DNA from: Lunularia cruciata
Taxonomy: Eukaryota; Streptophyta; Marchantiopsida; Lunulariales; Lunulariaceae
DNA length: 64,000 bases
Assembly: GCA_948567375.1 (NCBI GenBank)
Contig: OX419758.1
Location: forward strand, 36,657,473 to 36,721,472
Direction of reading: 5' to 3'
In this document: positions 1-47,014 of the stretch, in pieces
Position numbering within the stretch: position 1 is the stretch's first letter
Layout: each line of letters begins with the position of its first letter
The notes under the pieces: model-generated
Database searches by the model: none
Told to the model about the DNA's origin: nothing
What the model saw: the letters and a program-made list of their open reading frames with translations, nothing else
Translations under genes and position numbers: made by a program

Positions 1-65
1 ATAGTGTAGCTAGACCCTTACCTTCATTTTTGGGTCAACAATAGCCAATGAGTGGTGGTCTTACT

Positions 66-200
66 TGTTGGACTTGTGGTGGACCTCACCTTAAGAGAGA
101 GTGCACTCAAGGTAATGGACATGATATCTTTGGTGCATAACAACCAGCACAAAGACAATGTGACCATTGCCATAGATTTGGTCACACTAGTGATCTATGC
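66..200 (+). pseudogene. gag nucleocapsid fragment with two CCHC zinc knuckles
   Basis: Two zinc knuckles are readable in one frame: positions 66-104 give C-X2-C-X3-H-X4-C and positions 159-200 give C-X2-C-X4-H-X4-C. A stop codon sits in the linker. In LTR retrotransposons such knuckles lie at the C terminus of gag and bind the RNA genome. They mark the gag/pol boundary of element A; the rest of gag is left of the window. Downstream to about 1000 no motif is recognisable, although the DNA still aligns with copy B from about 545. Confidence 0.8.
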
Positions 201-1029
201 TTTGAACTTCACCTAGAGTTATGGAGTGGTAGGTGGTAGGTGGTTACTATGGTAGGTGGTAGAGAAGCTCTAGGTCATGGAGAACTTGGTGGTAAAGGAC
301 CCACACCTAATAGGAGCACAATACCTATCCTTGCTTATGATAGAACAATAACTACTTGGATTAAGTAGTTGGAGCAAAGATTGGCTGGCATGGCCATAAC
401 TTAAAGGAGATCAAATTTAGGTGTTGAGGCTTCCATCTCTTATGTTGGTATTAGAGACGTCTTGGACTTTATGTGGAGAGTAGCACAAGTAGATTCATCT
501 ATAGCAATAACTAGGAGTGCAGTATGTGCTTCAGAGCCTAGAGGAGCATCAATGGAGTTGGATCCACAAAGAGGAGAGGTTGGTAGATAGGTCAAACTTC
601 CCCAATCTTTCACACTCTTTGAGGCACTACAAACAATATCCCTAGCTCCAAGATGTCCTAATGCAAGTGTAGTAGGTGCTAATGGATTGCATGATGGATT
701 AGATGCTAGTCAACCACCTACTACTACACAAATTGAGTCTTGCACAATGTTGGGAGTGGCTTAGTTGATTATGCACTTCCTTTTGTTCTCAACTAGTGAC
801 ATGCTACATTGGAAGGTGACCCAACTCCATTGTTCTGATTAGTTGCCATACTTTGTGAAAGTAAGGATGATGTGGTTCCTACTTTGAGGGCAAAGGTGGT
901 AGATAGTGGAGCTAACTTGGTTAAGGAGCATGGGATTGCTCAATGACCAATAGTTTATGGTAGGCAATAGTAGCTATGTTGGAGGAGTTATGAGCTAGAT
1001 TTGCCTTTGAGTGAGCGCAATTCACACCT

Positions 1030-1643
1030 AGAGTTGTCCTATTGGATAACTAAAGGGGGATTTCTATTTTGGTTGGTCTTGAGCTACATAAGATTGATAT
1101 AGAGAGGTATTCATTTCAAATCTCGACATCTTTAGAGGTGGTTCTTTACAATAAATCACATGTGGAGAGCTCATTGTCCAAATTCAGCTTAGTCATCCAA
1201 TTGATAGCTCTGTGGTGAGAGCTCAAGCTATTATAACAATAGCAAAGTTATATGATGTGCTAATTGGTGGAGTAGTATTACCATGGGTTTTAGTATTGAT
1301 TATTGGGAGGAGATACCTCTTATAGACCAAGTTGGTAGTTAGGTGAGGAATGGGTATGTTGCCTACTAGTGCACTTTAGTAGTGGTAGTCTTGGCTCACT
1401 ACAATCAGGGACTATGGTATCATTTTTAACTTTAAGTGGTTCCATTATTTGACCTATAGAAGTATTGAAGGGGAATGCTCATGTAGAGAATACTTCAATA
1501 TCAAAGGAGATCACTTTTGGAGTACAAGTGAGATCATTCCATCCACCTTGGATGTTCCATTGTGGAGTTCTAAGGAGGCATTGCAACATCATGCGGATCA
1601 ATTAATGCAAAAGGCTTGCATTCAAACCTTTGTATCACCATGA
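1030..1643 (+). pseudogene. Protease/linker region of element A
   Basis: This stretch aligns with the inverted copy B near 62.8-63.5 kb and keeps short open patches, the longest being 1449-1643 (64 codons). Its position between gag knuckles and the methyltransferase is where a gypsy aspartyl protease and linker are expected. I cannot point to a clear D-S/T-G active site, so the assignment rests on position and on conservation between the two copies. Confidence 0.45.
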
Positions 1644-1736
1644 GATTGATGTGAGGATGAGCCTTTGAAGTCTATTACCTTGTCACCTTTGTGCACCACA
1701 CTCATTTCTTGGTAGTATCCAATAGAGAAAGTATAT

Positions 1737-2686
1737 CTATTGGAGTTGTTTGGTGGGATTAGCACTGGACTAGCTATGGTATTATATGCAAGTATACGAG
1801 TACATACGTACTTGTATGTGGAGAGAGATGAGATTTTTAAGTGAGTCTCTCTACATCATGTGGCACATTTGGCTTATCAGTATCTTGAGTTATTATCAAT
1901 GTTAATAGTCAAGGGTTACGAAAAGACCACTACCAACAAAAAATTTCTTGTTGGGAGCATAGTATTTGGAGAAACATGATCCCATTCATTTGGTGATTTT
2001 TGGATAGCCATGTTGGGGATATACCCGTGTTGGCTAAGGTCAAGGTCTACATGATCCCTATTCTTGTATGTTTTAGGAGATGTTACGTATATTACAATAG
2101 CTCTAAGTTCATCAATCCATTTCTCTAGCCTACATTTTGGAGAACATCCCTTTAATGGGTGATTCTTGTACACAAGTGGTGGCAAGTACACATTAGGTTC
2201 ATTCTTGGATGGGACCTATATGTTTTTGGATGCAGCTAGAGTGGGATCACGGGCTCATTGTCTTCATCTTTGGTGGACAAGCCTCTTACCTAGAGAGGTT
2301 CTAAAGTGTGCCTATGATGGTATTTAGTTACTAACCACCTTATTGTTGATGACATTTTGGATATTGGGCACAAATCTCAAATGGTGGTAGTAGCTAATAG
2401 GTCACCTATGGTAGTGGTCAACCTCGTTGGATACCCGAGTCGCTTTACCTACACTTATGAGTTTCTCAAGCTTCTATGCTTTTCAAGAGGGAGGTTTGGG
2501 ACTTTAGGACTCACAATTATAGCAATTGGTGGAACCCAATGCCAATAAGAGGGAGTAGGCAATGGGTTTTTGTACCGGTATTACTGCTATTATGATAGTG
2601 TTAGAGGCATACATGCATCAAGTGTAAGGTAAGCTATGGACTTGAATTGTTTGACCTGGATTGTGAGCCTTGGCTTGGCTGAGTAA
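1737..2686 (+). pseudogene. C5 cytosine DNA methyltransferase-like domain carried by gypsy element A
   Basis: Read through frameshifts, this roughly 317-codon stretch shows the motif order of a C5 cytosine methyltransferase. Motif I (SAM binding) reads LLELFGGI at 1737-1760. The motif IV Pro-Cys catalytic pair lies at 2008-2013, followed by G-x-T and a glycine-rich segment. Motif VI reads ILENIP at 2131-2148 in the same frame as Pro-Cys. DAARVGSRAH lies at 2229-2258, then RE-stop-AMGF at 2550-2570 in the position of motif IX, and a conserved C-terminal segment ends at 2686. At least three frame changes and several stops make it non-functional. The residue before Pro-Cys is a stop and the usual Gln after it is Trp. 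Retrotransposon-borne methyltransferases are published for charophyte algae and dinoflagellates; a plant-genome copy pair is the notable point. The domain sits upstream of reverse transcriptase in both A and B, so it belonged to the ancestral element. Confidence 0.82.
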
Positions 2687-2864
2687 TGTAAGATACACTT
2701 TATAAGCATCACCACTTTGACACTTGTGAGTTATGTGTCTATCAAGATGATTTAGGGACATGCAAGGGACTATGGATTGAATGGGTAGGGTATTCTTGGG
2801 ATACAACTAGTGGCTACTAGTGAGAATAGTCTACTTGGGGTCCATCCATGTGAACATGGTCTAC

Positions 2865-3612
2865 TATAATGTTGTGAAGATAGCAAGGAAACACAAACGC
2901 ACAAACACAAGTTTCACACTCAAACTCCGATGCCCCAAAGGAGCACCTTCTCTTTATTATATAGACAAAGAGGATCTCCTCCAAGGACGCTCCACCATAG
3001 GATTAGGCACATAGATAGGTGATATGTCAGTAAGCTCCACCCTTGGATTACTTACTTGGATGGGTGACATGTTAGTCTTGGTCCTATCTGGTTGGTCAAA
3101 CAAGCTTTGATCAAAGGGAATCTTTTAGAGAATCTTCTTGTAGAGTCTCAAAATCACATGGGTGCGGTACTGTTGGAAAGCTCTCAATGAGACAAACCAA
3201 GGGAGAGGAAAGGTTAACCTTTCCATTAATTGGAGGTGGGGAAAACTTGTACATTTTTAGGCCTAATTCATCCGTTTAGGCCTCCAAAATTGCCTTCAAA
3301 GATTTCAAACATATTTTGATTCCTACTCTATTAGTAGAAGTCCACTTTTGGTGATATGTCTTTTTGATCTATGTAGTCCATCATGTGTAACATCCTTCTA
3401 GATGTTACCAAACCAATTCTCACCTTTAAATCTTATGTCTAGCTATTGGTTCTAAGTTTTTCAAGTCTATTTTGGTTTTTGCCATATTAGTAGAAGTACT
3501 CTTTTGGTGATACTTCTATCTGATCTATTTTTTCCATCATGTATAAAATCATTCCAAATATTACCAAACCAAATTTCACATCTAGATCATATGGCTAGCT
3601 CTTGGTATTACA
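2865..3612 (+). repeat. Solo LTR, family T, copy 1
   Basis: A 748-bp block flanked by a perfect 5-bp target-site duplication, TCTAC at 2860-2864 and 3613-3617. It ends in GGTATTACA and starts with a degraded form of the TGTAATAC terminus seen in the copy at 11570. An internal TATA-like stretch follows the conserved segment CTCTTTATTATATAGA near 2950. No internal domain is attached on either side, so this is a solo LTR inserted into element A after the methyltransferase region. Confidence 0.85.
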
Positions 3613-3990
3613 TCTACTTGGGTTACACCTTTGGTCTACTTGGGATGTAGCTAGAGGATGTATGGAGCTTGCAACCAAAAAAAGGGAGTTTTCTACATTA
3701 AGGTTGTGTATTCTAGTGATTTGGGGCATGACATTACTAATCCCAAGGGCCCGGTGTAGCAGCCAGTCTGTGCATCTTCCATGCCTACATTAGTTACAAA
3801 GGATACTTGGGAGTTAGACATTGGACCCAAGCTTACAAGAGTAGAAAGATGGAGTTTAGAAGTTCTTGAGGAGCTACATGAGTTGTTTTGCCTTTATTAT
3901 GAAGGATTGGGGGGCTCTGAAAGGACCTTGTATTCAAATTGAGCTTACTAGCAATACATCTTTTTTTGACATCCCTATAGATATAGTGAC
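3613..3990 (+). other. Element A linker between methyltransferase and reverse transcriptase
   Basis: No motif is visible. The segment is colinear with copy B and resumes element A after the solo LTR. Confidence 0.5.
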
Positions 3991-5240
3991 ATGGAGAGAG
4001 CATTGATTCAGAGTCAAAGTAGAGACCTTTTTGAGGCTAGTTTGGTAGAGATTTCACATAGAGAGTATGCTTTAGCTATAGTTATGCCAACCAAGAAAAA
4101 GAATATGCATGGCAACTACACAAATAGGCAGATGTGTGGAGATTATTGTCCTATCAACCAACCGACTAGGGTTGATTGGTATGCTATGCATACATCAAAG
4201 GTGATCTTTGATGTGATTGGACATGCAAAAGTCTTTAGTAATTTGGATCTTTGGGTATGATATCATCATTTGCTGATCAAAAAAGAGTGCAAGTCCAAGA
4301 TAAGATTTTGGGCTATTGATCCTCACGACAAGGATGTATTATATCAGTGGAGGTTCTTACCATTTGGGTTAAAGAATGTTCTTGCCAAGTTCCAAACTGT
4401 CATGGATAAGATCCTAACACGATTAGATTTTGCTTGGTGTTATACTGATGATATTTTGGTCTATAACACTACTATGGAGAAGCATGAGAAACATTTGTGG
4501 AGGTGTTTGAGAGGTAAAACTATCATGGACTCAAATTACATCTTGGAAAGTGTAGATTCTTCTACAAGTAGGTATTTGGATTACACTATCTACCTTGGAG
4601 GACTTGATGTTTAGCAAACTAAAGTGGAAGCTATTTCACGTATTCCTTAACCTATAGATGTGAGTAGAGCATGAGCATTCATTGGATTGGTAAACTTCTA
4701 TTGTTGATATGTTAGAGGATGTAATGCCATTGCCAAGGCCTTGACAAAGCTGACCAAGCTTACACAAGAGTGGTGTTAGGAAGATGAGCAAAAGAGAACT
4801 TTTATAGAGCTCAAGAAGAGGTTGACATATGCTCCTATTCTTAGGAGACCAATCAAAGGACAGCCATTTTAGGTTCATAAGATTAGAGTATATTAGGGTT
4901 TGGAGTAGTGCCAATAGCCAATAGGATGATGAGGAGAGGGAGTTTGTGGTGGTCTATTATAGTCAATCTAACAATTCAACACAAGCAAAGTATAGTTCAT
5001 ATGAAGGAGAGTGCTTGATAGAAGTATGGCAAATAGCACATTTCTATTGTTACCTATTTGGTAACCCCTTCACTCTCATCATTGATCATCAACCACTGAA
5101 GTGGTTGATGTAGTCAAAAAAGCTTACATGATGAGCTCTGATTTTACAAGAGTATAATTTAATGGTTATTCACAAACTTGGAGTAGCAAACCATGATGTA
5201 TATGGATTGAGTAGAAACCAATATCCCAACTAGTAGGATC
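3991..5240 (+). pseudogene. Reverse transcriptase and RNase H of element A
   Basis: The reverse transcriptase spans 3991-4614 in two open pieces separated by stops. The catalytic motif reads YTDD at 4441-4452, in the gypsy context before ILVY. Upstream are the PTKKKN finger segment and the FLPFGLKN motif near 4350. RNase H follows at about 4880-5240, with a recognisable ESYSSYEGE-like segment, the IIDHQPLKW motif near 5080 and the conserved NxxxDGLSR-type end near 5200. In Ty3/gypsy elements these convert genomic RNA to cDNA in cytoplasmic particles. Stops at many positions rule out function. Confidence 0.85.
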
Positions 5241-5434
5241 AGATTGGAGCATGTTGGTATGGTGAGACAAATGAGGAGATGGTGCCAGGTTGGCATGCAT
5301 CTACATTTTTATGTATATTATTTGAGATCTTGGTACTATCTCTCTTAGCACATACATAAGGAATTGTTTAGGTCTTAGATCCAAAGGTTGGAGATATTGG
5401 TACAATTAAGCAAGACATACATTATGATGTCTTA

Positions 5435-6335
5435 GTGATGGATTATCTTTGCACTGGTCTTGTGGGTGGCACACTTGGTGCCAAGGAGAGAGATCGTGTT
5501 CTTCAGCAAGTTAGGTGGTTTAGATTAGAAGATAGACATCTTCTTTGTGTATGGGAAGATGGTAGAATGCAAGTAGTACCATTTTCATCTCATAGACCAC
5601 AGTTGGTTTGTTATGCTCATGAGGAGCTAGGACATTTTGGAGTAAAGTGTACCTATAGCTTACTCTAGAGTCATTATTGGTGTATTATGTAAACCAATGT
5701 ATAGTAGTTTGTTGCTAGATGTGTGGTTTGTGATTGAGTTAGAGCATCATTTAATGCTCCTATGTTAGAGTCATATCCATTATCTATCATTGGATTAGGT
5801 TACTATTGGAGTTTGGATTTTGTTGTACCTTTACCATTGACTATGAGACATCATCAATATGTTTTGGTTATGGTGAAATAATTTTCTAAGTGGATTGAGT
5901 TGGTGGCACTTCCTGACAAGTCCAATGAAGGGATAATTTACTTGTTCTTAGATAACAGTCTTAGTCATTTTGGTACACCAATTGAGGTTTTGATTGATCA
6001 AGGTATGGATTTCTTGTGGAAGTTCTAAGTCTTATGTGATAAGGCCTTGATGGATCATCATACTACCTCCCAAGATCACCTTGAGGCAGATGGCTTAGCA
6101 AAGAGTGTTTCAAATGATGACGAGAGGATTACATAAGTATGGTTTGCAAACATGCCACTCGGGAGATTGGGATCTCTAGTTACCTTTGTTGTCCATGGGC
6201 TATCAGTTCAACCGGCAAGCCTCCTTAGCATCCTTCCCTCCTTAATTTTTACTCTATGGATGAGATCCAAATTTACCTATAACCATTTGTTGTGATGCTA
6301 TTGTAGTTCTGGACTTGGATGATCCAAACATGTAA
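5435..6335 (+). pseudogene. Integrase of element A
   Basis: The N-terminal zinc-binding region is represented by HEELGHFG near 5617 and a CVVCD segment near 5725. The catalytic core follows: SLDFV near 5815 (first Asp), LIDQGMDF near 5990 (second Asp) and an H-T-T/S-D-H-x-E-A-D-G-L-A segment near 6080 (Glu region). A C-terminal piece aligned with copy B ends with VVLDLDD near 6325. In-frame stops interrupt it repeatedly. The PHD finger present downstream of the same segment in copy B is absent here; the homology simply ends, implying a 3' truncation or replacement. Confidence 0.8.
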
Positions 6336-7916: not shown

Positions 7917-9366
7917 GTGGTTAAGATGAGGAAACTTCTGATTTTCTTTGGCAAGGATGAAGAAGATGTGGAGGTTTTTGTGAGAGACTTCAAGAGAGCT
8001 TGCATAGGAAACAATGAGAGGAGGAAGAATGAGTGGGCCTCATTATTACCAGATTTCTTTGAGGATGTAGCACTTACATGGTATGAGTCAGAAAACCAAA
8101 AGAGAGAGAGGAGAGATGGGCAAGAAGAGTCTTGAAAGATTTTTACTTCAACACTCATTGAGAACTTTCTTCCAAATGAGAGTTATGAGAGATTGATGAG
8201 TGAGGTTACCTTTCTCAAGCAAGGAGATGGAGAGAAAGTGAGAGTATATGTGGAAAGAGTGGAAAAGTTAGAGTCTAGATTTTACATAGTGTTGAGGAAG
8301 AGGTGGGGATGATGTGGAGAATACTATGATTGGCATAGGGACCATACTCACCAAGAATTTTGTGGGAGGGTTGAGACCACAAATTAGAAGCAAAGTGAGA
8401 TATGAGAAACCTTCTTCCAAGGTTGAAGCTATCAAGATCGTAATTCGGATAGAGGAGAGTTTGGAAGGAGATGAGAGTAATTTGGTGGTGAAAGAGGTTG
8501 TGCATCCTCCTTAAGGTTACAAGTATGGTGGAACTTCTGATACTTTGGTGGCAAGGGTTGCACCACAAGTAGTAGTTGCTCAAATTCTTGCACCTCCACC
8601 AAAGGATCCACTTCAAACCATCATAGAATAACTTGCAGATCTCAAGATCAATGTGGTGCAACTATGGGAGAAGAGAGAGGTGGATCAGAATGTGTGGAGA
8701 GGGCCTAGGAGTTATGGAAGTTATCCATATAGAGGAGGCCAACCAACCAACAATTTCAATGAGAGAAATTGTTTTGGTTGTGGAGGAAGAGGTCACATCC
8801 AAAGGAATTGCCCAAATTCCACCTACCATAGAGGAAGTGGTTATGAGAGAGCCAATAGAGAGGAAGAGGGAGGTAGTGAAACCCAAGTGGCTCCTAATCC
8901 AAACAAAGTTAAGAGGATAACATCTATAGATGTGGTTGAGAGCAAGTATGAGAAGGGAGAGTGCTCAAACTCCAAGAGTCTTAATTTGGAGCTTTTGGCA
9001 CAAGAGAAGAAGAGAGCTAGTTTTGAAGAGGATGTTCATTCTTCTCAAGGATTTACTCCTAGCCAAGATACTCCCATGCCTACTAGGAGCACTTGCACAA
9101 GCACTTCAACACCATCAACAACAAAGACTCCAAGGAAGAAGTTAGGGATGGAGGACTTCTTGATCTCAAAGCAACAATGGAACTACAATGTCTCGGAGGA
9201 TGTTGGTAGTCACAAGGCTAACATCACAATGGGCCAATTGTTTGCTTTGAATCCTACTTTGAGAAAGGAGCTTAGAGGTGGTTTGAGTTCTACAAAGAGC
9301 AAGAGGAAGAAGAAGGCAAAAGTTCTAGTATCAATGGGGGTGGTGGATGCCAAGCCAGCTCCATAG
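7917..9366 (+). pseudogene. gag of element C
   Basis: The N-terminal gag region (7917-8135, continuing in other frames to 8520) shows the typical W-Y and leucine-rich capsid-like pattern. The open frame 8653-9366 (237 codons) holds a perfect zinc knuckle C-X2-C-X4-H-X4-C at about residues 42-55 (CFGCGGRGHIQRNC, near 8776-8817). A Ser/Thr-rich tail and a basic KSKRKKK stretch follow. Gag forms the particle and packages RNA. Frameshifts near 8140, 8310 and 8520 disrupt it. Confidence 0.8.
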
Positions 9367-9399
9367 GAGGCTTGTGAATATGCTCCAAGATTGATGTGA

Positions 9400-9747
9400 G
9401 AGTGAATGATCACAACATCAAGGATACATTGGTTGATGGAGGATCAGCAGTGAATGCCATGTCAGAAAGGTTGATGAAGAAGTTGGGTGATACCCTCAAG
9501 ACCTTCAACATTTGTGGTGAGCATGGCAAATAAACAACAAGTTCGACTAGTAGGGGTGATAGATAAGGTGGTAGTTTCAATTATGGGAGTTCAAAATCTC
9601 ATGACTTTCCAAGTCTTGAAGGATTCAAGCTATGACTTACTTCTTGGGAGGCCATGGTTGAGAGCAGCACACACAATGGATAGATGGCACAAAGGGTACT
9701 TGAGGATTGGGCCATCAAACTATAGAGTCATAGTTCCTGTGACTTAA
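9400..9747 (+). pseudogene. Aspartyl protease region of element C
   Basis: The active-site segment reads LVDGGSAVN near 9430-9456, with Asp-Gly in place of the usual Asp-Ser/Thr-Gly; this variant occurs in some plant gypsy lineages. A frame change follows, and then the frame 9487-9747 contains LLLGRPWLR (near 9640), the conserved flap-to-C-terminal segment of retroviral-type proteases. The enzyme cleaves the gag-pol polyprotein. It is broken by at least one frameshift and a stop. Confidence 0.7.
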
Positions 9748-9952
9748 CTCCACCAACACTTCACATTTAGATACACCATCTTCTGATTATTGGGAATCAA
9801 ATTCTGAAGAAGGAGCTTCAAGTGTGGATACAAGCATGGAGGAGGAGACTTCCATGCAAGATGATTCTGAATCAGACTCAGATGTGTATCCCTTGTGTGC
9901 TATGGATTTTGCACCTAAGCCAGAGGTTTTCAAGGACCTAGATAAATAACCA

Positions 9953-11510
9953 TTGACACTTGAGGAGATAGAGAGAAGGTTAGCTACCCTCAAGTATGGC
10001 CTAAATGTTACCAAGGAGGAGAAGGTGAGATTTGAGGAGATTTTTTGCAAGTTCATCCATGTGTTTGCTTTCAGTTACAAGGATTTGAAGGAAGTCACCT
10101 TGGAGGAGCACAAGATAGAGGTGGAATCACATGTAAGACCAATCTGCCAAAAGCAACGTTGCATTGGCCCACCAATTTCTTTGGTTGTGAAGGAGGAGAT
10201 TGAGAATCTCAAAGAGGCCGGATTTATCTTTGAGGTGGAGAATTCAGAATGGGTGTATCCAATGGTTATTGTGAAGAAAAAGAATGGCAAGCTTTGAGTA
10301 TGTGTGGGTTACAAGAAGCTCAACGTTGTTACCAAGAAGGACTACTACCCATTGCCATTCATTGATGAGATCTTGGAAGAGGTTAGAGGTCATGAGAGGT
10401 ATAGTTTTGGAGATGGTTATAGTGGATAGAACCAAATCAAGATACACCAGAGCATCAACAACTCATCATATTCACCACACCTTGGAGGACTTATGCTTTC
10501 AAGGTCATGCCTTTTGGGCTTTGTAATGCTCCAATCACATTCCAACGGTTCATGAACAAGGTATTTGAACCTTTCATTGGGAAGAGAATTCATTGATGAC
10601 TTTTGTATCTATGGGAGCAAGGAGGAGTACTTTGAGCACCTAATCAAGGTCTTGCAATGCTTGGATGAGGCAAATGCATCACTCAACCTAAAGAAGTGCA
10701 TTTTTGGATGTGAAGAAGGTCTAATTTTGGGGCACATCATCTCCAAGGATGGAATAGTAGTTGATCCTGAGAAGGTGAGGAAAATCTTAGACCTTCCATT
10801 CCCTTCAAGCTTGACAAAGTTATGCCAATTCTTAGGGATGGTTAGGTACTATAGGAGGTTCATCTTCTCATTTTCTAACAAGGCTTATGCATTGACAATC
10901 TACATGAAGAAGGGTGTAGATTACATGGTGATTTAGAAGACAAGGAGGCTCTCAAAGCTTTTGAGGAACTCAAGCAATCCCTTGTTGTAGCTCCAATTCT
11001 TGCTAAACTTGATTGGAGTAAGCCTTTCATCCTCTACACTGATGCTTCTAATGTAGCTATAGGATGCACTCTTAGTCAATTAGACCAAGATGGGTATGAT
11101 CATCCAATAGCTTATGCTAGTAGGTAGATGGTTTCAATAGAAAAGAACTACTCTATCATGGAGAGAGAAGGGTTGGTAGTGATCTTTGGTCTCAAGAAGT
11201 TTAGACACTACTTGATTGGAGGGAAAGCCACCTTTGTCACGGATCACAAGGCTTTGAAGTACATCTTCAACAAGCCTAATGTTGAAGGGAGACTAGCAAG
11301 GTGACTGATACTCTTGTCTGAGTATGACTACCTCATTAAGAATAGACCAAGAAAGAAACATGCAGATGCTAATTTGTTATCTAGAGCTTATGATCATGAT
11401 GGAGATGAGCCAATGGATGATTCCTTTCCGGATGAGGAGCTCATGACAATCTCAGTCACTCAAGAGTTCCAATGGAGTACAAGGAGATTATGGATTTTGT
11501 GACAAGAGGT
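9953..11510 (+). pseudogene. Reverse transcriptase and RNase H of element C
   Basis: Reverse transcriptase begins in the frame 9953-10297, which ends at VKKKNGKL. The palm continues in other frames with a PLPFIDEIL segment near 10350. The catalytic motif appears as FIDD at about 10590-10601 (Phe in place of Tyr), inside an open frame to 10936 that contains the LGMVRYYRRFI segment. RNase H follows near 11030-11400: YTDAS (11036), the DHKALKYIF motif near 11242 and the HADANLLSR end near 11360. Several frameshifts and stops make it inactive. Confidence 0.84.
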
Positions 11511-11569
11511 AACTATCCAAAAGGGATGCATGCTAGGGAGAGGAAGGCCATTGTAGCAAGATCTAGACT

Positions 11570-12266
11570 TGTAATACTCCGAGGACAAGAGAAGAGAGAA
11601 AACATCGATTGCACACTCAAACATCCGATGCCCCAAGGGAGCACCTTCTCTTTATTATATAGATAAAGAGGATCTCCTCCAAGGAAGCTCCACCATAGGA
11701 TTACGTACTTGGATGGGTGACCTGTCTTGTCTAGGTCCTTTCTGGTTGGTCAAACGAGCTTTGACCGGAGGGAATCTTTTAGGGAATCTTCTTGTAGGAA
11801 TCTCAAAATCACATGAGTAACGTACCGTTGGAAAGCTCTCGACGAGACAAAGCAGGGGAGGAGGGAAGGCCAGCCTTTCCTCCATTGGGGGGGGGGGATC
11901 TGCACATTTTCAAGGCCTAATTCATCCGTTTAGGCCTCCAAAATTGCCTTCAAAGATTTCAGGCATATTTCGGTTCCTACTCTATTAGTAGAAGTCCCCT
12001 TTTGGTGATACCTCTTTCTGATCTGTTTAGTCCATCATGTGTAACATCCTTCCAGATGTTACCAAACCAATTCTCACCTTTAAATCATATGTCTAGCTAT
12101 TGGTTCTAAGGTTCTCAAGTCTATTTTGGTTTCTGCCCTATTAGTAAAAGTACTCTTTTGGTGATACTTCTATCTGATCTATTTTGACCATCATGTATAA
12201 CATCATTCTAGATGTTACCAAACCGAATTTCACATCTAGATCATATGGCTAACCCTTGGTATTACA
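11570..12266 (+). repeat. Solo LTR, family T, copy 2
   Basis: A 697-bp block with short inverted termini, TGTAATAC at the left and GTATTACA at the right. Flanks are AGACT (11565-11569) and AGACC (12267-12271), a 5-bp target duplication with one change. It matches 2865-3612 across its length, including the TTTATTATATAGA TATA-like stretch. It interrupts element C between RNase H and integrase. This copy defines the family termini best. Confidence 0.87.
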
Positions 12267-12269
12267 AGA

Positions 12270-13485
12270 CCTTACACAATGGTGGAGGATATTCTTTTTC
12301 ACCAAGGAGCAGATGGTCTACTTTGAAGAGCAGTGGGTAAGAAAGAGTATATCCTACTTATAAAGGAGTTTCATGAAGGGTTAGTGTGTGGAGGACCTTT
12401 GCATGAAAGGTGACTGATTTCAAGATTCTAGATGCATGTTACCATTAGAGAGGGATTTTCAAGGATTGTCTTGATTACTGCAAAACTTGTCATGTTTGTC
12501 TAGCTTTTGCTAGAAAGTCTACATCCACTCCACCACTTAGATCAATTTTATTGCTAGGACCTTTTGAGAAGTGGGGAATTGATTTTGTAGGTCCTTTCAA
12601 TAGAACCTCAAGGAAAAATTGGTATATTGTGGTAGTTATTGATATCTTACCAAGTGGGTTGAGGCTAGACCATTGAGCGACAAGAATGAAGATGAAGTTT
12701 GTAGACTTCTTTATGAACGCATTATCACTAGGTTTGAATACCCTTTGGAGTTGGTTTTTGATAGAGGAGGAGACTTACAAGAAGCATTACTACAGCCATG
12801 CTATGACATTTCTCCATCACACATAGAGTAACTACATCCATATAAGCCAAATTCCAATGGCTTGGCAGAGAGAACCAATCAGATCTTGTGCATGATGTTG
12901 GCCAAAGATGCAGAAATGGAGGGGGCTAAACATCATGGGGACAAGAGGATTCATGTGGTTTTGTGGGAGTATAAGACAACCATGAAGACTTCCATCGGAT
13001 ATTCTCCATTTCAATTGGTAAATGGTATTGAGTCTACCCTATTTATTCACTTTGATCTTCCTACCTTCTAAAGCATTCATAGGAGATTGAAGAAAGCACA
13101 AGGAGGTGATGAAGAGAAGTCAAGGAAGGAACAACTCATGGAGTTGGAAGAGGCAAGAGCAGTTGCTATGGTTCGAGTGGAGCAAGCCCAAAGGAAACAA
13201 AAGGAGAGTTATGACAAGAGGTAAGGCAAGAAGAAGGTGGAGCCTTTCAAAGAGGGTGATCGGGTAATGTTGTTTGATTCTATTTGATTCAAGAGAGTGC
13301 AAAAGAAGTTTTTTGCCTAAGTGCTTTGACCTTTCATTGTGGAGAAGATGTGGGGCAATTACACCTATGATCTCAAGGAGTTGGGAGGAAGACACTTTGA
13401 TAGAATTAACCATGATAAGTTGAAGATGTATCATAGAAGGTAGAGAGACCTTCACTTTGAGGACAAAGTGAAAACTTAGTCCGTA
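12270..13485 (+). pseudogene. Integrase and C-terminal linker of element C
   Basis: The zinc-binding CKTCHVC segment lies near 12480. The core begins with GIDFVGPF near 12575 (first Asp). The frame 12862-13071 carries the AERTNQ segment and the SPFQLV motif typical of the core's end. After 13080 a Lys/Glu/Gln-rich linker leads to a GD-R-V-MLFD segment and a HDKLK motif near 13410, the conserved C-terminal domain of this gypsy type. Integrase inserts cDNA into the genome. In-frame stops disrupt it. The coding region ends about 25 bp before the LTR. Confidence 0.82.
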
Positions 13486-13491: not shown

Positions 13492-14172
13492 TGTAACACC
13501 CATTTGTGCATGTATGTGGTATTGTTATATTTAGCTTAGTATTACAAGTACTTGAGAGATATTATTTATATAGAGATAAAAGATGGTTCTACATTAGTCA
13601 TGATTAGTTAAAGTTAGTCATAGCTAAGATAGAGGGGATCTTAATTTAGAGGAAGTGGAAAAGATGAGCATCACTATTTTGGATTCTAGTGTGTTGACTT
13701 GGTATTATTCTTAGGTGTTTGGCTTTGAGGAAAGAGTTGAGAACTCTTGGGCCCGCAAGCCTTTTTGTTTTGGATTTTTCTATAGTCCAAGGATAGCCCA
13801 TGTGAAGGAATCCTTGACTTAGTAGTTAGGTCAAGATAAGATCATATGCTTAGTGGAATATGCCCATGTGTATGAATATTCCTTTATATATTTTGACTTT
13901 GTTTGACTTTTAGTCTAGTAACTTGAATTACTACGGTAATTAGTAACTTTGCTGTGTAATTATTTTACAAGTATATAAACAAGGGGTGAGGAGGTACTCA
14001 TCATCCTTTCATTTGCAACTATCTCTTTCATTGAGTTCTCTAGTGAGCAGTGTCTTGAGTCTTGGAGTGTTAGCCTTGCAGGAGTATGATGGAGTCTTTG
14101 CCTTCTTAGTCCATGGTGCACTAGCATAATAGCAATAAGAGTTTTATCTTGTGAGAGACCGGCCGGCTCACA
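13492..14172 (+). repeat. 3' LTR of element C (family G)
   Basis: A 681-bp block starting TGTAACACCC and ending GGCTCACA. It is matched along its length by 59082-59772 (plus) and by 54771-55899 (minus, interrupted). It has a TATA box, TATATAAAC, at about 13973, conserved in all three copies. It begins directly after the C-terminal integrase linker of element C, so it is called as its 3' LTR. Confidence 0.85.
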
Positions 14173-16149
14173 GTTCATCATAATTGAAATTACTTCTTGA
14201 CAATACATAAGCTTTTGTCTTGGATGAAGTAATTGAGGTCAATGCAACCCTATCACCTTCTTGAGTTTGTGGAGATTCCCTAACATCTAAATATATACTT
14301 GAAAATGGTGATCCAAGATTGTTAACTTTCCACTAATGAACTAATGAACAAACCGAAGCTTAAATAATAAACAAAGTCTGAAGATTAATGTGAGAAAATA
14401 ATTGTTCATTTGTTCTTAGTGTCACTTTCAATGGTTATGGTTTAGAACAACCACAATTTAATTCTTGCGCTTGACAAAGATCTATAAACTCTCTTTTTGC
14501 TTTATTTTAAATAAAATATAAACTACTTTTCATCAATAAACTTCAACTGATTTACTATAACACCGAGATAACTGAAAATAAATCCTTTTCAGCTCAAAGC
14601 ATGTACCTTAGCCAACAACATATATCAGTTTTTCTCTCTTATAAGAATTTGGTCAACCCTCTCCAAAAGCTCCGTAACTCTTTTTTTCATTTGGAGCAAA
14701 GATTATTATCTCCTTGATCAATTTCCTTGAGAATGTAATTGTATTACCCAATATTTACATAAACACAAATGGAATGGCGATCTATCCGCCCTCCGCAAGA
14801 TATCCGGTAAATACATCATGGTTATATTTTGATTCGTAGATTCCTTTACTAGTACTAGTTCCATGATAATTTTTACAAGTAAATTTCAACAGTAATCAAA
14901 CTTATCAAACAGGAAAATGCAATCGCTTACACCTTTGGATCGGTATTGTATTACAGACGATATGGAATCTACTTGGTAAAAAATTGATGTTAATTAAAGT
15001 TGTATCCTTGATTAAATTCCTATATAAGCTCAAGCATTAATTGTTTGCTTGGATTCTCATTTGTAATTCATAAAATTAGATCTAAACTTACGTTCACTTA
15101 AATTGGAATAATACAAAACATCAATCATTAATATTATAAATTGTGTCTTTAATATTAATATTTTTTTATAATAATATAGATATTCTTAATCATGCCCAAA
15201 TATACACTCCAAACCATATATCGTAAAGGAATTAAGATCATATATGACCAAGAGTTCTATCATAAAGAAATCTATTATATGTATAATTATTAAAATGGAT
15301 GAGAAATTATATGAAAATTGTGGGATTTTTAAGAAAAATGAAAGTAAATACATGTAGAGTGCATTTGTTTTTGAGAGAGATATATATAATTTAAAATATA
15401 AAAGATTATATACCTATCTACTTAGGTTAATTCACTAAAAATATATATAAAAACTTAGACTGTTCATTTATTGAAGATTACTAGAGTTTATATTTATAGA
15501 TTCAAACTCTCCAAGAATCATGCATTACTTTCCTATTTTGTAAAGATCATTTAAAATAATACTATTAACTTGACAAAAGGGTAACATGAAAAAATACTTA
15601 TTATTACGTTTGACCAATATGTTAAAAAGATATTCTACAAAAGAAATTTTTATCAAGCATTTGTAATTTATAATATTTTAAAGTGTATCAAGTATAAAAT
15701 ATAGTTCAAAAGAATCATTTTTATAAGAATGCTTTGGACTTTTGATCTACTTTGAACTGTAGTAATTAAACTATAATATTTTTGAAGTTGTTCAAGTATG
15801 CAAATTAGTTTTATAACATATTATCACAAGTACTTTTTCAAATATCTGATGCAATTTTTTCTTTTGTATATTCTATTAACTTATCTTAAATATGCAAATT
15901 TTAGAAATTAATTATATTTAAGCTATTAAATTTTTTTCTCTCTCCCTTGTACAGCTTGATGGGGTCTTCCCATCTTTTGAGTTTGCTGCATGGTCGCCTT
16001 TTCTATAAAAGAACTTTATCTTTAAAGCTCCAAGAAAGACTTCAAATTCAAAAGAGTAAAGTATGATCTTCTATAAAATCCTCTACCTAAAACTTGATTC
16101 TTTAGATAAAAGAGTATCTTAATATTAATTATCATCAAATTTCAGAGAG

Positions 16150-16167
16150 AGAGAGATATAGATATAT

Positions 16168-16209
<42 letters not shown>
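16150..16209. repeat. (TA)n microsatellite
   Basis: An uninterrupted run of about 20 or more TA units preceded by GATATA repeats. Confidence 0.95.
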
Positions 16210-16212
<3 letters not shown>

Positions 16213-17622
16213 TTTATTTTTTTTCCTTCATTTGAAATATCTTTGATAATTTTAAACTAATAAGTTATAAACTATTTTGACCTCTGATCAATTTATATAA
16301 TTTCTTTCTCTTACATCATAACTCTATTTTGAAGAGAAGACTATGTTTTGATAAGTTTGTTTTATTTTATTTTACCAAAAGAATAAATTAGGAACTCATC
16401 CTTTTCTTTCAATTTTCCATGTTAAAAATGTATTTCTATTATGGATATTTCATAATCTACAAAGCATACATACCTAAATTTTTATTTCTAAATTAATTTT
16501 ATATATTTGATAAAATTTAAACTACTTATTAAAACTTAAACTTACCCTAGCTTTGTAGGTTTGTATTATTCATAGATATTTGAGCTATAATGGATAGTAA
16601 ACTTAGAAAAAAATAATATTATAATATATTCATAATATTTAACTATCTAAAAAATTAAATATATATTTATCAATATATTATATCGATATTTATCACTAAT
16701 AAGAAAGTATATAAATTCTCAAAATAAATTGTAATAATATAAATTACAGATATATAACTAATAAATAAATAAATATGTTATTATAATAGATTTAGAGTGG
16801 TATACAACTACTTGAAGAAAGAGTTGTTTGGAAATAAAAGATTGATTCACTTAATTTTAGTACTTACATAATATAATATTAAATATTTATTGGTTTTAAT
16901 TTCAGTTTATAATCATATATAATTATGAAAAATAATAATTAATATTAAGCTTTTATTTAAGGATATTTAATAACTGAAAATTAATTCTATAGTTGAATAA
17001 TATGACTATAATAAAAATGGACTTACATGCATATTAAAATGTTGATTTAGTTATGCAAAATTTAGATATTTTATATTTGATTATGAACACATTTAAATGA
17101 AAATAGATCTTTCACACGATGTAACTCATGAAATTATAAATTTTTTTTATTTTTAATATCAAATTTTTAGCTACAGATATGAAAAATTTAAAAATTCATC
17201 TTCTCATACTATTTTTGGTTAGACATAATTAAAGGTAGAGCTCTCCTTTAGTTGAGTATATCAAATAGAAGAAAATTCTTCTTAATTAAATAGTTGAATA
17301 GTAAATTAATTATGACTAGTTTATATTAGATTCTATCAAGTAAGAGATTATTTTATCATAGAAATGTATAATGGAGCTTTTAGTTTTGATTTTGTGTCAA
17401 TAAGATTAGGTTTTTTTGTCTTATATCTCAGATTATCAATCCATTTAAGGGATGTACTATATGATTTTATTTAAGTATATATAAAAGTAAGAGTGGTTAT
17501 TAGAAGTATCTCACCTCTAGAGTTTATTAGGAGAATTCTTCATATCACCTAGAATAAAGGGTCTTCATTTTTAAAGAGAATGAATTACTTACTTTAATTA
17601 TATAGTGGGACAATCTTATCAT

Positions 17623-17686
17623 TTATACTCCAAATATATTACCTCATAATAATTAATAATAATGAGGTAATATATTTGGAGTATAA
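17623..17686. repeat. Perfect inverted repeat, 25-bp arms
   Basis: Arms 17623-17647 and 17662-17686 are exact reverse complements, separated by a 14-base AT-only loop. No element around it is recognised; it could be the core of a small foldback or MITE-like insertion. Confidence 0.9.
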
Positions 17687-20461
17687 TAATACCAAATATA
17701 TAATCATCTGATATAAAATATTTATTATAGTTATAATAACCAATATAAAATAATATATTTGAAGATGTATAAATACTTTCTTTTGCATTCTTTGAGTTTG
17801 TCTTAGCTTTTTAAGTTTTAAAATAAATTTTATAGAAGCTAAATTATCTTTTACAATAGTGGTCATGGAGGTAAATTGGAAGTTACAAAAGTGATTTAAT
17901 ATAAAAAGATTTCATATCAACATAGTTCCAAATGTTGTGAGTTGGAGGGAAGGGTAATGAAACAAGCTAATGGTCTCCAAATAGACTTTCGTTGAAGAGG
18001 TTTATAAGAGTGTCAAGTATTTGCTTGCCGGAGTGAAAAAATAGATAATAATCAATACTACAAGTTTATATCAATATAAAAAGACAAAACGAGTGATGAA
18101 GGAGTACACATTATCTCTATCTTTCCACTGTCTACAACTTTGTACATCATAGTTTAGTTTGGCAACACTTGGTTAGTTTATCAATAAGCATATCTGGAGA
18201 TAACATTTAGTGCATATGTCTAGCAAGGACCTCATGATGTAAATGATGAAGTCTCCTAGCCTACATTTTAAGAAGAGAATATGGATTGATACTTAAATAT
18301 AAATTTAAATATTCAAGTTGATAGGTACTTTTATGCAAAATAATAACATAGAAAGACTGGATTACTCTTTGCACAATCTTTACATCATTAGAATGAACTT
18401 ATCATGATGTTTCCAACTATACCAATATCATTACAAGAGCACAAGTTATAAAGTGTTAAGTGAATAGACACATTAACTAATCTTAGTGCCACTAAATAAG
18501 AGCTTGAATTATTATGACCATAGAATAAGACAAAATCATATTTGGGATTTAATTAGAGAACCCAATGTCCAATGTAAATGCTTTAGTAACATAGAAAGCC
18601 ATTGAAAGAGATTTATAACATGATCAAGTTTGACCCAAATCTATGAGAGGAGGAAGGTCTTATAATTTGGGATTTATTTATTTTGGTTTGGTTTTCTTTT
18701 TGGGAGACCAAAAGAGTAGAGTGACTTGGGTAGTCTAGAACTATATGTAAAGAAGGTCCCTAAAGCTAGACTGGAACCCAAACCTGACCTTGATAACTCT
18801 AGGAGGTGATCCAAGAATATAAGGTTAATTTTAGGTTAAAATAAAAGCTTATCTAACAAGTGCATATTGAGTGTCCAAGAGATGATATCTTGTCCTTAGT
18901 TTTAAAGTTGCATTGTGGTACTATTTTGACTGATCTATGATCCATCAGCTAGGAATGATGTGTCATAGCAAAACATGAGTTAGACATGATTGATAATCCA
19001 ATTGAGCCATTAGGTGCAAGAGATATACTAAACTCCTTTGGAAATTGCATTTATATACAACTCTTGAACCAATATCACAAAATTTTTCCAAAGATGATTC
19101 AAAGTTATACTATGAAGATTAAATTTTGCATGAGTTGAGCTCTTAACACATTAGACAAAATTATACTCCTAATAAGCTACTTGGATAATCTTATTATGCA
19201 TTAGATTTTTCTTGATCAATATACTCTTTCACTTTATGTAATTTTTTGTGTAATTTGTTTATGTAATTTACGTAATTTCAGTTTATGTAATTTCTTGAGT
19301 TTATCTTATTTGATTTGGACAATCTAAAATGTGATATCCAAGTTATTGGTAATAGAAATATTCTTTATACTAATATTGTAGTTCTTGGAAAACATTAGAT
19401 AAATTTTTTATCTAATGACATTATATATTGGATAGCATCAGTCTTGATGTGAAATGCTTCATTCTCTTTTTATCAAAGGGTTTGTATGACTTCTCAAGGC
19501 TATGAATGTAAAAATGTTGAAGAGATAAGAAAGTCAAATCACTTAACCATTTGAATGACTTCTTTGGATTGCTAGATTACCTCATGATTATTGGTATCTT
19601 TATACAATGTTTTAATTGATAAATTAAGTGATCTAATGCTCCTTCTTCATTCATCTCCAAAATACTTATAAGATTATTTTGGAATGGAATGATATAATTC
19701 TTCATCAAGCCTATCCATTTTAGCTCCATTAGACTATCATTTGTTGCTCTTGCTATTTTGATGACTTATAATTTTAATGTATAGATAAAAAATATTACCA
19801 AGGTAATTTTCTAATATAGGTCAAGTTTTAGATAAATTTTTTAACCTTTTAGGAGATACTCTAGAAGACACCTTCAAAGTTTCATCTAGAAGGTACCTCA
19901 GGGACCAATAAAAAAATTTCATTAAATATTATGTAGAAGGTACCTTAGGGACAAATAAATCTGGTAAGTAACTTAGTGAACCTTTTGGTAGACTTTGGCT
20001 CTTAAATGCTTTGGAATTGAGTTACTTCAATAGGAATTTTTGTTTGCTAGAAATTTAATACTTAAATTTTTAAGAAGCAAGCTTATGCTTATTCAAGTAC
20101 AGATAATAATGCCTTGGTTCATCTTGAAATTTTAAAAGAGGCATCTGTTATATTAGATGATAGTTTTCAATATTGAAAACTTTTTTGGATCAACCTCAAT
20201 CAACTTATTAAAATTTTATTTTGAAAATGATTGATATTAGTAATATAATTATGTATGTCAACCAATTAGATTGGTAGTTTTATTGTATTTAAGGTTAATG
20301 AGAAGATTGTATTCAATTCTTCATTCCTTCTAAAAAAAAACTTTGATGATAAGACTAATAGTATAATAGAGAAGTGTTATGAGTAAAGAGGAGATACACA
20401 TTTTGGTCTAACTACAAGATGCTCTTTATACACAAACTCCAAGTTTTTATTCAAATTAGAT

Positions 20462-23400
20462 GTGTTGGACTCATTTTTAACAAATAACTTTGATAGGTGG
20501 AAGGTGACATTATATAACCACACTTGTAAAGCTATTGGCATTGGTACAATACACATGAAGATGTTTGATGGTATTATGAGGACTCTTGCTGATGTGATGC
20601 ATGTTCCTGAGTTAAGGAAGAATTTGATATCACTAAGCACTTTGAAATCAAATGGTTGGAGGTGGGTAGGAGAAAATGGAACACTCAAGGTATCAAAAGG
20701 AGCATTGGTTGTAATGAAGAGCAAGAAGATAGGAAATCTTTATGAGCTTTTTGGAGAGACAATCACTAGAGGAGTGTCAAGTACCATTTCTGAAAATGAA
20801 GATCACAAAGATCTTACTCAATTATGGCACCTATGTTTGGCTCATATCAGTGAAAGGGGTCTAATTGAATTGTCCAAGCAACAACTTCTGAAGGGCCTTA
20901 AAAGTTGTAAGTTAAAATTCTGTGAGCATTGTGTAATAGGAAAGCAACGGAGGGTAAACTTTTTCATAAGAGTTCATGCACAAAGGGAATTTTAGACTAT
21001 GTGCATTTTGATGTTTGGGGCCGTGCACCTATAGCTTCAAAATCTGGAGCATTATATTTTGTATCTTTGGTTGATGATTACTCTAGGAGAGTATGGGTCT
21101 ACACCATGAAGCAAAAATCAGAGGTTTTCTCTATCTTTAAATAATGGAAGGTGATGATGGAGAAACAAACTAGAAGGAAAGTGAAGTGTTTTAGATCTAA
21201 TAATGGTGGAGAATACAAATCTGGAGAGTTTGATAGATATTGTAAGAGTGAAGGGATAATTCATCTCTTTACTATACCCGGTACCCCTCAAAATAATGGT
21301 GTGGCAGAGTGGATAAACCATTCACTCTTGGAGAAAGCAAGAGGTATGTTAAGCAACACCGGATTGGAGAAGAGTTTTTGGGCAAAAGCTATAAATACGG
21401 CTTGTCATTTGGTAAACATTTCTCCCCCTACTGCTATTGAGTGTAAGACACCTATGGAAAAATGGACAGGTAGGCATGTTGATTACTCTTCACTTAGAGT
21501 GTTTGGATGCATAGCTTATGTTCATATTGAAGAAGAACAAAGGACAAAGTTAGATCCCAAATCTAGAAAATGTATATTCTTGGGATATGAGAAGGATACA
21601 AAGGGATAGAGATTATGGGATCCAGAAAGGTGTTGTCTTGTTGTGAGTAGGGATGTAGTTTTTGATGAGACTAGTACAATGAAGACTATTACTATAGCAA
21701 AAGAAAAGAAAAAAAAGTTTCAGTCAGATTTTGTTAAGGTATTGATCTTGGAAATGAAAATTTTTTACCTCTTGTAGATATACCAAGTGAACCATTGGAA
21801 GAGTAAAGTCCAGAAGTGATTCATGAACGTAGGTATCCAAATAAGGATAGAAGGCCTCCAAAGAGATTTGATGATTCATTTGTAGCTTATGCTCTTCTTA
21901 AGGAGAATGTTGAGATTCTTCATATGAAGAGGCAATGCAAGATCAAGAGTGTCAAAAGTGGCATTGTGCAATGGAAGAGGAGATGAAGTCTTTGGCCAAA
22001 AACCAATCTTGGAGACTTGAAAAATTGCCTATGGGAAAGAAGGCAATTGGTTGCAGATAAATATTCTGGAGGAAGGAAGGATTTCCAAAATCAGGTGGAG
22101 ATCAAGACAAAGCAAGGCTTGTAGCAATGGGTTATAGCCAAAAAGAAGGTATTGACTTCAATGAGATTTTCTCACCATTGGTAAAAATCTCTTGAATTTG
22201 TGCACTATTGGCAATAGTTGCATTGCATAACTTGGAGTTGGAGCAACTAGATATTACAACCGCTTTTTTACCTAGAGAATCGGAGGAAGAGATTTACATG
22301 CATCAACCTGACGGCTTTGTGGTACCTATGAACCAGAACCTGGTTTGCAGGTTACAAAAGCCTTTATATGGACTAAAGCAAAGTCCAAGACTTTGGTACA
22401 TGAAATTTGATGCTTTCATGTTGAAGCATGGATATAACAGAAGTGAATCAAATTGTTGTGTGTACCTCAAGAAGCTACATGGACCTAGAGTATTTGACTT
22501 AATCATCTTGGTACTATATGTGGATGATATGCTGATTGCTGTGGAGTATATGGTTGAGGTGGAGAAATTGAAAGCATAACTTGGTAAGGAGTTTGATATG
22601 AAGGACTTGGGTTCTTCAAAGAGGGTCCTTGGGATTGAAATCCATTGGAACAAGAGCAAGGGAAAGTTATGGATATCTCAAAGGAGATATTTGGAAAAAT
22701 CACTCGCTTGGCTTGGCATGGAGAATGAAAAACTAGTGAACACTCCAATGGCAAATCATTCCAGGATATCATTGGAGCAATGTCCATCAAATGAGGAGGA
22801 GAGAAAAGTAATGTCAAATATTCCTTATGCTAGTGCTGTTGGGAGTTTAATGCATGCTATGGTCTGCGCTAGACCAAAAATCTCATATGCTGTGAGTATG
22901 GTGAGTAGATATATGGCAAATCCAAGGAAACAACACTAGGAAGTTGTGAAGTGGATACTTTGTTACTTGAAAGGGACTGTAAATATTGGCATTACCTTTG
23001 ATGTGGAGAAGGACAGAGAAGGAGGAATTACAGGGTATGTAGATTCTGATTTTGCCAGACACTTGGATAAGAGAAGGTCTACAACAGGATTTGTCTTTAC
23101 ACTTGTTGGTGGTGCAGTAAGTTGAAAGTCTACTCTCCAATCTACTGTTGCTCTTTCTATTACAGTGGCAGAATATATGGCAACAACTGAGGCTGCCAAA
23201 GAGGCAATATGGCTACAAATATTAGCCAAGGATGTAGGGCTCCCTAACATGAAGTCCACACTTTTTTGTGATAGCCAAAGCACTATTCACTTGGCCAAGA
23301 ATCAAGTACATCATTCAAGGACGAAGCATATTGATGTCAGACATCATTTGATCAGGGAAGCTGTGACAAATGGTAATATCAATTTGCAAAAGATTGGCAC

Positions 23401-24185: not shown

Positions 24186-24210
24186 CTTTCAGCATACGCT
24201 CAAGTATGGC

Positions 24211-24733: not shown

Positions 24734-24837
24734 AGAAACTTCAGTGTAGGCTGAAAGTAAGTGTGAACCGAGACACTACAGGAGAACGAGAGAACAGTGT
24801 CTAGGATTAAGACAGGCCGCCCATGGAGGCCTTGCAA

Positions 24838-24848
24838 GTATATATGCC
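24838..24848 (-). promoter_or_regulatory. TATA-box candidate of the inverted module copy
   Basis: The minus strand reads GGCATATATAC about 30-40 bases before a segment shared with 48170-48200 (block II). Upstream on the same strand lie RY-type ATGCATTTGCATGC sequences near 24945. It could be the promoter of the module family. Inference from composition and position only. Confidence 0.4.
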
Positions 24849-46990: not shown

Positions 46991-47014
46991 GCCGCTGAAG
47001 GGTTAGGCCTTGCG

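Follow-up and report, generated by a model that had tools for sequence, protein, structure and literature searches.

The 64,000-nucleotide stretch of the Lunularia cruciata genome studied here (the window) contains two old, decayed members of one family of Ty3/gypsy retrotransposons that carry a cytosine-5 DNA methyltransferase (MTase). Copy A occupies positions 1 to 6325 of the plus strand, and copy B occupies positions 57745 to 64000 of the minus strand. The sequence-only reading of this DNA had shown copy A alone and missed copy B. Comparison of both copies with intact relatives elsewhere in the genome and with proteins from other organisms indicates that the MTase-gypsy family is real, functional-looking, and numerous, and that it represents a known kind found in a new group of hosts, with a new anatomy. 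To that known kind, KnitGypsy-Dnmt3 of the alga Klebsormidium nitens (de Mendoza 2018; as described in the main text of PMC5890265), the family adds an MTase on the Gag side, a leaky stop, a PHD finger, target duplications, and abundance in this host.

The methyltransferase and its intact relatives

The copy A MTase lies at 1708-2683 (+), between the protease and the reverse transcriptase (RT) of the element. These limits were set by alignment to an intact copy, L013 (78.5% identity by blastn); the sequence-only reading, which had recognized a C5 MTase in this place, gave 1737-2686. The four motifs that it named were all recovered. LLELFGGI and RE-x-AMGF share one frame, and the Pro-Cys pair and ENI both fall in the next, so the domain is frameshifted; it also contains many stops. 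The Pfam DNA_methylase profile, which had been proposed as a check, matched the motif IV-VI piece of the relic below threshold (E = 0.0061; 16.5 bits against a cut-off of 22) and gave no match for the other three MTase pieces of copy A. By this profile alone, the identification of the relic would be marginal. Among relatives, 10 of the 10 scanned passed the same cut-off.

Searches that drew on relatives gave a clearer result. A stop-masked reading of the relic matched 60 proteins at E ≤ 0.01, the best of them at 1.3e-100 with 55% identity over 100% of the query. A hidden Markov model (HMM) built from relatives and this genome's own copies, with the window rows left out, made 16 matches in the 64 kb at E ≤ 10; all fell in copy A or copy B, the best at 6e-12. 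The top score in 20 dinucleotide shuffles was 6.4 bits. With the relatives included, these comparisons place the MTase identity of the relic beyond chance.

Motifs I, IV (PC), VI (ENV), VIII, and IX/X occur in that order in 14 aligned relatives, and likewise in 20 copies sampled from this genome. The 14 relatives are invariant at the catalytic Cys and at the Glu and Asn of ENV, which are also kept in 20/20 copies, a sample biased by its choice through the MTase profile. Searched against the PDB, the element MTase P0001 matched DNMT3A (E = 6.1e-12), DNMT3B (1.4e-9), the DRM structure 4onj (1.2e-8), DRM2 (1.6e-4), and HaeIII (3.5e-4). The closest solved structures are those of DNMT3A/3B; by these matches and by motif order, the element MTase is a DNMT3-like C5 DNA methyltransferase.

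The sequence-only reading had also called for a search for intact copies, and in these the MTase does sit in an open gypsy frame. The assembly comprises 566 Mb in 74 contigs, eight of which, at 60 to 85 Mb each, hold 558 of the 566 Mb. P0001 found 13,363 first-look candidates, a figure that is not a copy number. We scored 111 matches from the top of the ranked list, which are not a random sample; all cover P0001 from residue 2 or 3 to residue 366-368 at 72-74% identity. Sixty-six of them have no stop within the match, and the stops in the other 45 include a single TAA, the rest being TAG or TGA. Twenty copies, picked for an MTase profile match and long open frames (a choice that biases their integrity), were read at length. 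They encode Gag, zinc knuckles, protease, and MTase, then an in-frame TAG, then RT, RNase H, integrase, and a PHD finger; several have frameshifts or stops. The Ty3/gypsy order of protease, RT, RNase H, and rve integrase was thus confirmed in the family.

The terminal repeats A1 and A2, described below, could be compared at full length in 16 of the 20 copies. Their Kimura two-parameter (K2P) distance is at most 0.035 in 15 of the 16 (lowest, 0.0022) and 0.11 in L015; the A1/A2 match in L012 spans 74 bases only, and L018, L019, and L026 have none. These are recent insertions, and the family is young and numerous in this genome.

The ratio of nonsynonymous to synonymous substitution rates (dN/dS) over the 20 copies is 0.43 in gag, 0.33 in the protease, 0.83 in the linker, 0.355 in the MTase, 0.58 after the MTase, 0.30 in RT-RNase H, and 0.485 in integrase-PHD. 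Within the MTase, nonsynonymous and synonymous variants stand at 15:17 among those common to at least three copies and at 69:39 among singletons. This pattern indicates purifying selection on the MTase, comparable to that on the RT. All eight ligands of the PHD finger are kept in 20/20 copies.

The stop junction and the termini

Gag-protease-MTase and RT-RNase H-integrase-PHD form a single frame interrupted by TAG. In the first 20 copies, the TAG is present in 20/20 and is followed by CAG and then by CCA, CTA, or TCA. Twenty further copies, taken down the ranked list of 111, have TAG and CAG-YYA in 20/20, with stops at 0 of 1961 other in-frame codons nearby. The context UAG-CAR-YYA was thus found in 40/40 copies over the two samples. 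These 40 junctions are not 40 independent events, because the copies share recent ancestors. Independent support for a leaky stop comes from the lack of other stops around the TAG and from a distant relative in a metagenome assembly (L001), which has TAG CAA TCA at the equivalent place.

Readthrough Gag-Pol junctions exist in retroelements. The junction found here resembles that of the tobacco mosaic virus type, in which an in-frame UAG followed by CAR YYA parts upstream from downstream products; according to PMC2754532, CAR YYA after UAG is essential for readthrough in that virus, and 32% readthrough was measured in plants. Unlike the viral junction, the one in this family has an MTase domain added upstream of the stop, and its readthrough is predicted from sequence. 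The presence of UAG-CAR-YYA in all 40 copies and in the distant relative suggests that, provided readthrough occurs, the MTase is probably produced together with Gag rather than with Pol.

Where both ends can be read, the element has the order A1 (about 449 nt), body, B1 (106 nt), A2, B2, a layout of split direct repeats. Repeat A starts with TGTCAC and repeat B finishes with ACGACA, giving the termini TG..CA. Ordinary long terminal repeat (LTR) ends were rejected, since in the copies readable at both ends B follows A2 but not A1; complete identical LTRs are absent from the two ends. A purine tract precedes B1 in 20/20 copies and reads exactly CTAGGGGGGCGA (12 letters) in 16. Of the 18 copies that have a second B, 12 read CA-GC-TG at the B1/A2 joint and the other 6 have a changed letter there. 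Exact 4-bp target duplications flank 15 of 17 testable copies, the exceptions being L015 and L023, and no 5-bp match was found; L021 and L022 had two candidate ends in this test, and L018, L019, and L026 could not be tested. The site after A1 is CATCAGAG, which has only partial likeness to an initiator-tRNA site. At about 475-495 of L013, the A1/leader joint TCTGAT-TAC-ATCAGA forms a perfect hairpin by eye and may be a priming feature.

This layout suggests how the ends could arise. Reverse transcription would make B-A repeats, with the purine tract before B1 and a possible primer site after A1. Integration would then use the palindromic CA-GC-TG joint inside a B-A repeat, as from a two-repeat circle opened at the B-A joint, and would yield the A-body-B-A-B form.

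The window copies and their surroundings

Copies A and B align to L013 in segments of 72.5-84.5% identity. Their parts are as follows.

15-395 (+): copy A Gag zinc knuckles, decayed (two CCHC by eye; tblastn with P0046, 43% identity, E = 3.6e-21)
1027-1380 (+): copy A protease, decayed (blastn to the L013 protease segment, 80-82% identity)
1708-2683 (+): copy A MTase domain, frameshifted, many stops (blastn to L013; protein search; HMM)
2866-3613 (+): copy A foreign insertion of 748 bases, past the MTase (gap splitting the post-MTase match)
3757-3765 (+): copy A TAG CAG CCA, in-frame leaky-stop context at the junction of the MTase and RT frames (position shared with all 40 sampled copies)
3760-5146 (+): copy A RT and RNase H, decayed (blastn to L013, 82%; Pfam RVT_1 on pieces, 4.7e-12)
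5147-6325 (+): copy A integrase, decayed (tblastn with L001 ORF2; blastn, 83.8% for 5706-6325)
63525-64000 (-): copy B Gag remnant, continuing beyond the window
63056-63510 (-): copy B protease, decayed (blastn, 75.7%)
61699-62727 (-): copy B MTase domain, decayed (blastn, 72.8%; tblastn with P0001, E = 3.3e-39)
61397-61405 (-): copy B TAG TAG CCA at the junction (the CAG of live copies changed to TAG)
60019-61387 (-): copy B RT and RNase H, decayed (blastn, 78.5%)
59775-59916 (-): copy B part of the integrase (blastn, 84.5%)
59076-59774 (-): copy B foreign insertion within the integrase/PHD part (match gap; repeats D1, I7, and I11)
58554-58955 (-): copy B integrase C terminus and PHD finger (Pfam PF00628, E = 5.3e-8)
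58285-58379 (-): copy B terminal repeat B1 (blastn to L013, 83%)
57852-58276 (-): copy B terminal repeat A2 (blastn, 67% to L013 A1)
57745-57848 (-): copy B terminal repeat B2, element end (blastn, 85.6%)

No PHD end was found in copy A, whose match to the element stops at 6325. The copy A insertion is a repeat of several hundred bases with relatives at 11569-12207 and 56724-56882 (repeats D2, D7, D17, and D18), and the copy B insertion is a repeat also present at 13571-13870 and, inverted, at 55329-55741.

We counted decay at columns that were readable and in agreement in at least 18 of the 20 sampled copies. Relative to this agreement, copy A has substitutions at 622 of 4283 columns and copy B at 649 of 3836. 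Changes of the C-to-T type affect 0.41 of CG sites and 0.43 of CHG sites in copy A, and 0.455 and 0.394, respectively, in copy B. At CHH sites the fraction is 0.13-0.145 in the window copies, and transitions affect 0.037-0.048 of A/T sites. This substitution spectrum has the pattern expected of methylated-cytosine decay. The observed/expected ratios of copies A and B are 0.04-0.25 for CG and 0.07-0.35 for CHG. The gypsy-type element at 8600-13300 (+), in which no MTase was detected, is depleted equally (CG, 0.13; CHG, 0.35). Because this MTase-free element has the same loss, ordinary host silencing explains the decay of the two copies, which taken alone is no evidence of self-methylation. The element at 8600-13300 retains a zinc knuckle and remnants of RT and integrase, with its RT 28% identical to that of L001.

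The rest of the window holds Copia-type remnants at 20387-21609 (+) and 41128-41538 (-), of which 20387-20992 has Pfam matches to GAG-pre-integrase and the Pol beta-barrel, the remainder being assigned by eye. The stretches 24000-28000 and 47000-51000 are 80-86% alike in several blocks and have a CG ratio of 0.70-0.73 within otherwise depleted DNA; four frames tested from them gave no Pfam match. Positions 14000-20000 are very AT-rich, with GC down to 20.5%.

Relatives, known systems, and the role of the methyltransferase

Among 97 related proteins, part of which came from a search that scored only the 8000 candidates sharing most words, the named relatives are from Calypogeia, Marchantia, Riccia, Sphagnum, and Closterium; most rows are nameless. 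The tree that the sequence-only reading had suggested recovered the element MTases as one clade with weak support (87/80) but did not nest them in DNMT3. Marchantia P0083, the L. cruciata copy L030, and Closterium P0097 were left out of it. The element MTases of this genome group as sister to a set that includes Calypogeia and Marchantia (98/100), and a separate clade (99/97) unites human DNMT3A with the host DNMT3 and DRM; the root is unsure, and the branch to the bacterial outgroup is very long. With the reservation of that unsure root, the tree does not favor an origin by capture of the plant's own DNMT3. The host DNMT3, DRM, and probable CMT genes (L003, L006, L004, and L005, named by eye from motif order) have the C5 motifs in common with the element. 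The element MTase is matched by host DRM at E = 3e-8, by host DNMT3 (L003) at 2e-6, and by human DNMT3A at 1e-11; 6/6 element MTases tested matched human DNMT3A better than host DNMT3 (two host genes, one partial). DRM identity was rejected, since host DRM L004 has the rearranged motif order (VI-X before I-V) and the element MTase does not.

A second architecture occurs in P0090 and P0096, in which the MTase follows RNase H and precedes the integrase, and Glu-Cys replaces Pro-Cys. Pattern searches gave 25 matches among viral contigs, none of them confirmed, and 27 in a bacterial genome collection, two of which were confirmed: L001 and L002, the latter a bacterial MTase. L001 is a 9.3-kb self-overlapping contig from a Synechococcales metagenome bin that holds a complete-looking MTase-gypsy element; it is probably eukaryotic contamination of the cyanobacterial bin.

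By its plastid accD the host is likely a bryophyte, perhaps a liverwort; the vascular plant proposed by the sequence-only reading is not supported. Among the best 120 of 7895 matches, the nearest are bryophytes: Sphagnum (94%), Pallavicinia (93%), Flatbergium (91%), and Anthoceros (90%), followed by Marattiales-type ferns (85-87%) and Huperzia (85%), with Physcomitrella-type mosses also at 85%; this is a ranking, not a tree. The likeness to elements of charophyte algae that the same reading had drawn was borne out by a shared MTase kind and a DIRS-like repeat layout, as the main text of PMC5890265 describes them. The defining traits of KnitGypsy-Dnmt3 there (Gypsy domains, an intronless DNMT3-like MTase, DIRS-like repeats, and purifying selection) are all found in the L. 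cruciata family, the combination of DIRS-like repeats with Gypsy domains being taken from a figure legend. The published MTase lies within the Pol ORF, whereas here it is upstream of a conserved TAG and in frame with Gag and protease. The algal element has fewer copies than that of Symbiodinium, in contrast to the many copies in this bryophyte-like host. Set against KnitGypsy-Dnmt3 as published, UAG-CAR-YYA, the PHD finger on the integrase, and 4-bp target duplications are further differences; a term search of the main text found neither PHD nor readthrough, and the one place where "stop codon" occurs deals with LINE copies that have premature stops. No protein named for K. nitens was among the relatives returned, and the sole charophyte name was Closterium (P0097).

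SymbioDIRS-Dnmt3 of Symbiodinium, from the same text, is likewise a retrotransposon that has both a DNMT3-type MTase and terminal repeats of the DIRS kind. It has a tyrosine recombinase, in contrast to the rve (DDE) integrase and target duplications found here. A DIRS identity was rejected on these two features and on the lack of a recombinase in the Pfam matches of two L001 frames. Both LTR Copia and DIRS elements, from streptophytes and dinoflagellates, have been reported to carry DNMT3 members (PMC12344493, in part), and DNMT3 has been reported from nonflowering plants and gymnosperms and as absent from angiosperms (PMC6453930, in part). The accessible portion of a Marchantia study catalogs five MTases, none in retrotransposons (PMC5784723), and that of PMC8616336 has no mention of an MTase-carrying gypsy element. 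No paper on such elements in bryophytes was found among the open PMC papers listed, as judged by titles and the starts of abstracts, which does not prove absence.

The best explanation as a whole is that the MTase, made at Gag dose, methylates the element's own cDNA, a reading to which we give slightly less than an even chance; self-methylation by the element is a plausible hypothesis. Most ribosomes would halt at the UAG and release Gag-protease-MTase, and a minority would read through to the full polyprotein. The MTase would join the particle at a Gag-like dose along with RT and would there methylate the newly made cDNA, chiefly at CG sites, no later than integration. The PHD finger might steer the integrase or test target chromatin. 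The host would later silence copies by CG and CHG methylation, leading to the decay of the two window copies. Consistent with a DNA target, two SymbioDIRS MTases had CG-type activity in yeast (PMC5890265, main text).

Several observations weigh against this reading. The K. nitens MTase gave no methylation in yeast, a result that its authors call inconclusive (same text). The tree does not put the element MTases inside DNMT3. Five relatives (P0054, P0084, P0089, P0090, and P0096) carry Glu-Cys at the Pro-Cys position. Two of these (P0084 and P0089) lack a stop between MTase and RT, and the leaky stop is thus not shared by every relative. The integrity of the 20 copies is biased by how they were chosen. 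Finally, the equal depletion of the MTase-free gypsy element means that the window copies could have decayed with no need for element-made methylation.

The live copies differ from the window copies, being poor in CG only rather than in both CG and CHG. Over the coding body of the 20 copies, observed/expected CG is 0.40-0.47 and CHG is 1.14-1.23; at the free codon joint, CG is 0.21-0.27 in four frames. A looser 3' stretch that includes the terminal repeats has CG of 0.43-0.85 (0.6-0.85 in 17/20), and three copies have 0.40-0.47 in the 5' leader and 0.77-0.83 in the exact terminal repeats. For comparison, CG is 0.78 in L001 and 0.61-0.82 at four host MTase loci. This pattern is compatible with a body methylated at CG only, whether by element or host enzymes. 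It would also suit a more specific scheme that we consider quite unlikely: MTase at Gag dose writes CG-only methylation on the element body and the repeat promoter stays CG-rich, so that an insertion mimics a body-methylated gene and evades CHG silencing. Host methylation, codon use, or promoter selection could yield the same CG/CHG picture.

Other roles are conceivable for an MTase made with Gag. It might act on RNA, either the genomic RNA packaged in the particle or a tRNA used as primer, its DNMT3 likeness then being ancestry only; we regard this as unlikely. The Gag-side position suits RNA packaging, and PMC5890265 (main text) raises RNA methylation for its LINE elements and reports no DNA activity for the K. 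nitens MTase. Against an RNA target, the best PDB matches are DNMT3A/3B, with a tRNA MTase at E = 0.0069 only; the two Symbiodinium enzymes methylate DNA; and the live copies are CG-depleted. That the MTase is self-limiting or host-serving, helping to silence sibling or other elements so that a less damaged host lets the lineage survive, is an option named in the same paper. In its favor, C-to-T type changes per CG/CHG site exceed A/T transitions about 11-fold in copy A and 8- to 9-fold in copy B. We nevertheless find it rather improbable: the CHG decay indicates host enzymes, the depletion extends equally to the MTase-free element, and many insertions with near-identical repeats look unrestrained.

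A structural or DNA-binding part of the particle, with catalysis incidental, would account for the predicted Gag-level dose and for the five Glu-Cys relatives. Retention of the catalytic Cys and ENV Glu/Asn, in the MTase-profile-chosen copies as in the 14 relatives, makes this very unlikely. Host-gene capture by retrotransposons is common, and the MTase might be such a captured passenger, functionless and with its loss still pending. This idea was already disfavored and is scarcely credible given a dN/dS of 0.355 beside 0.83 in the adjoining linker, the excess of nonsynonymous variants among singletons relative to shared ones, and the occurrence of MTase elements in liverworts, Sphagnum, Closterium, and the L001 contig (from desert crust by its isolate name).

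The 2018 description called the benefit of a DNA methyltransferase to a retrotransposon unclear (PMC5890265, main text). Target duplications on a DIRS-like repeat layout raise the question of how such elements integrate. The leaky stop predicts the dose and the compartment of the MTase, and the question of its role would thereby reduce to simple assays. The genome offers young copies with an intact MTase, decayed copies, an MTase-free gypsy control, and host DNMT3 and DRM genes. The family is thus a setting in which to ask why a genetic parasite carries the kind of enzyme that normally silences parasites.
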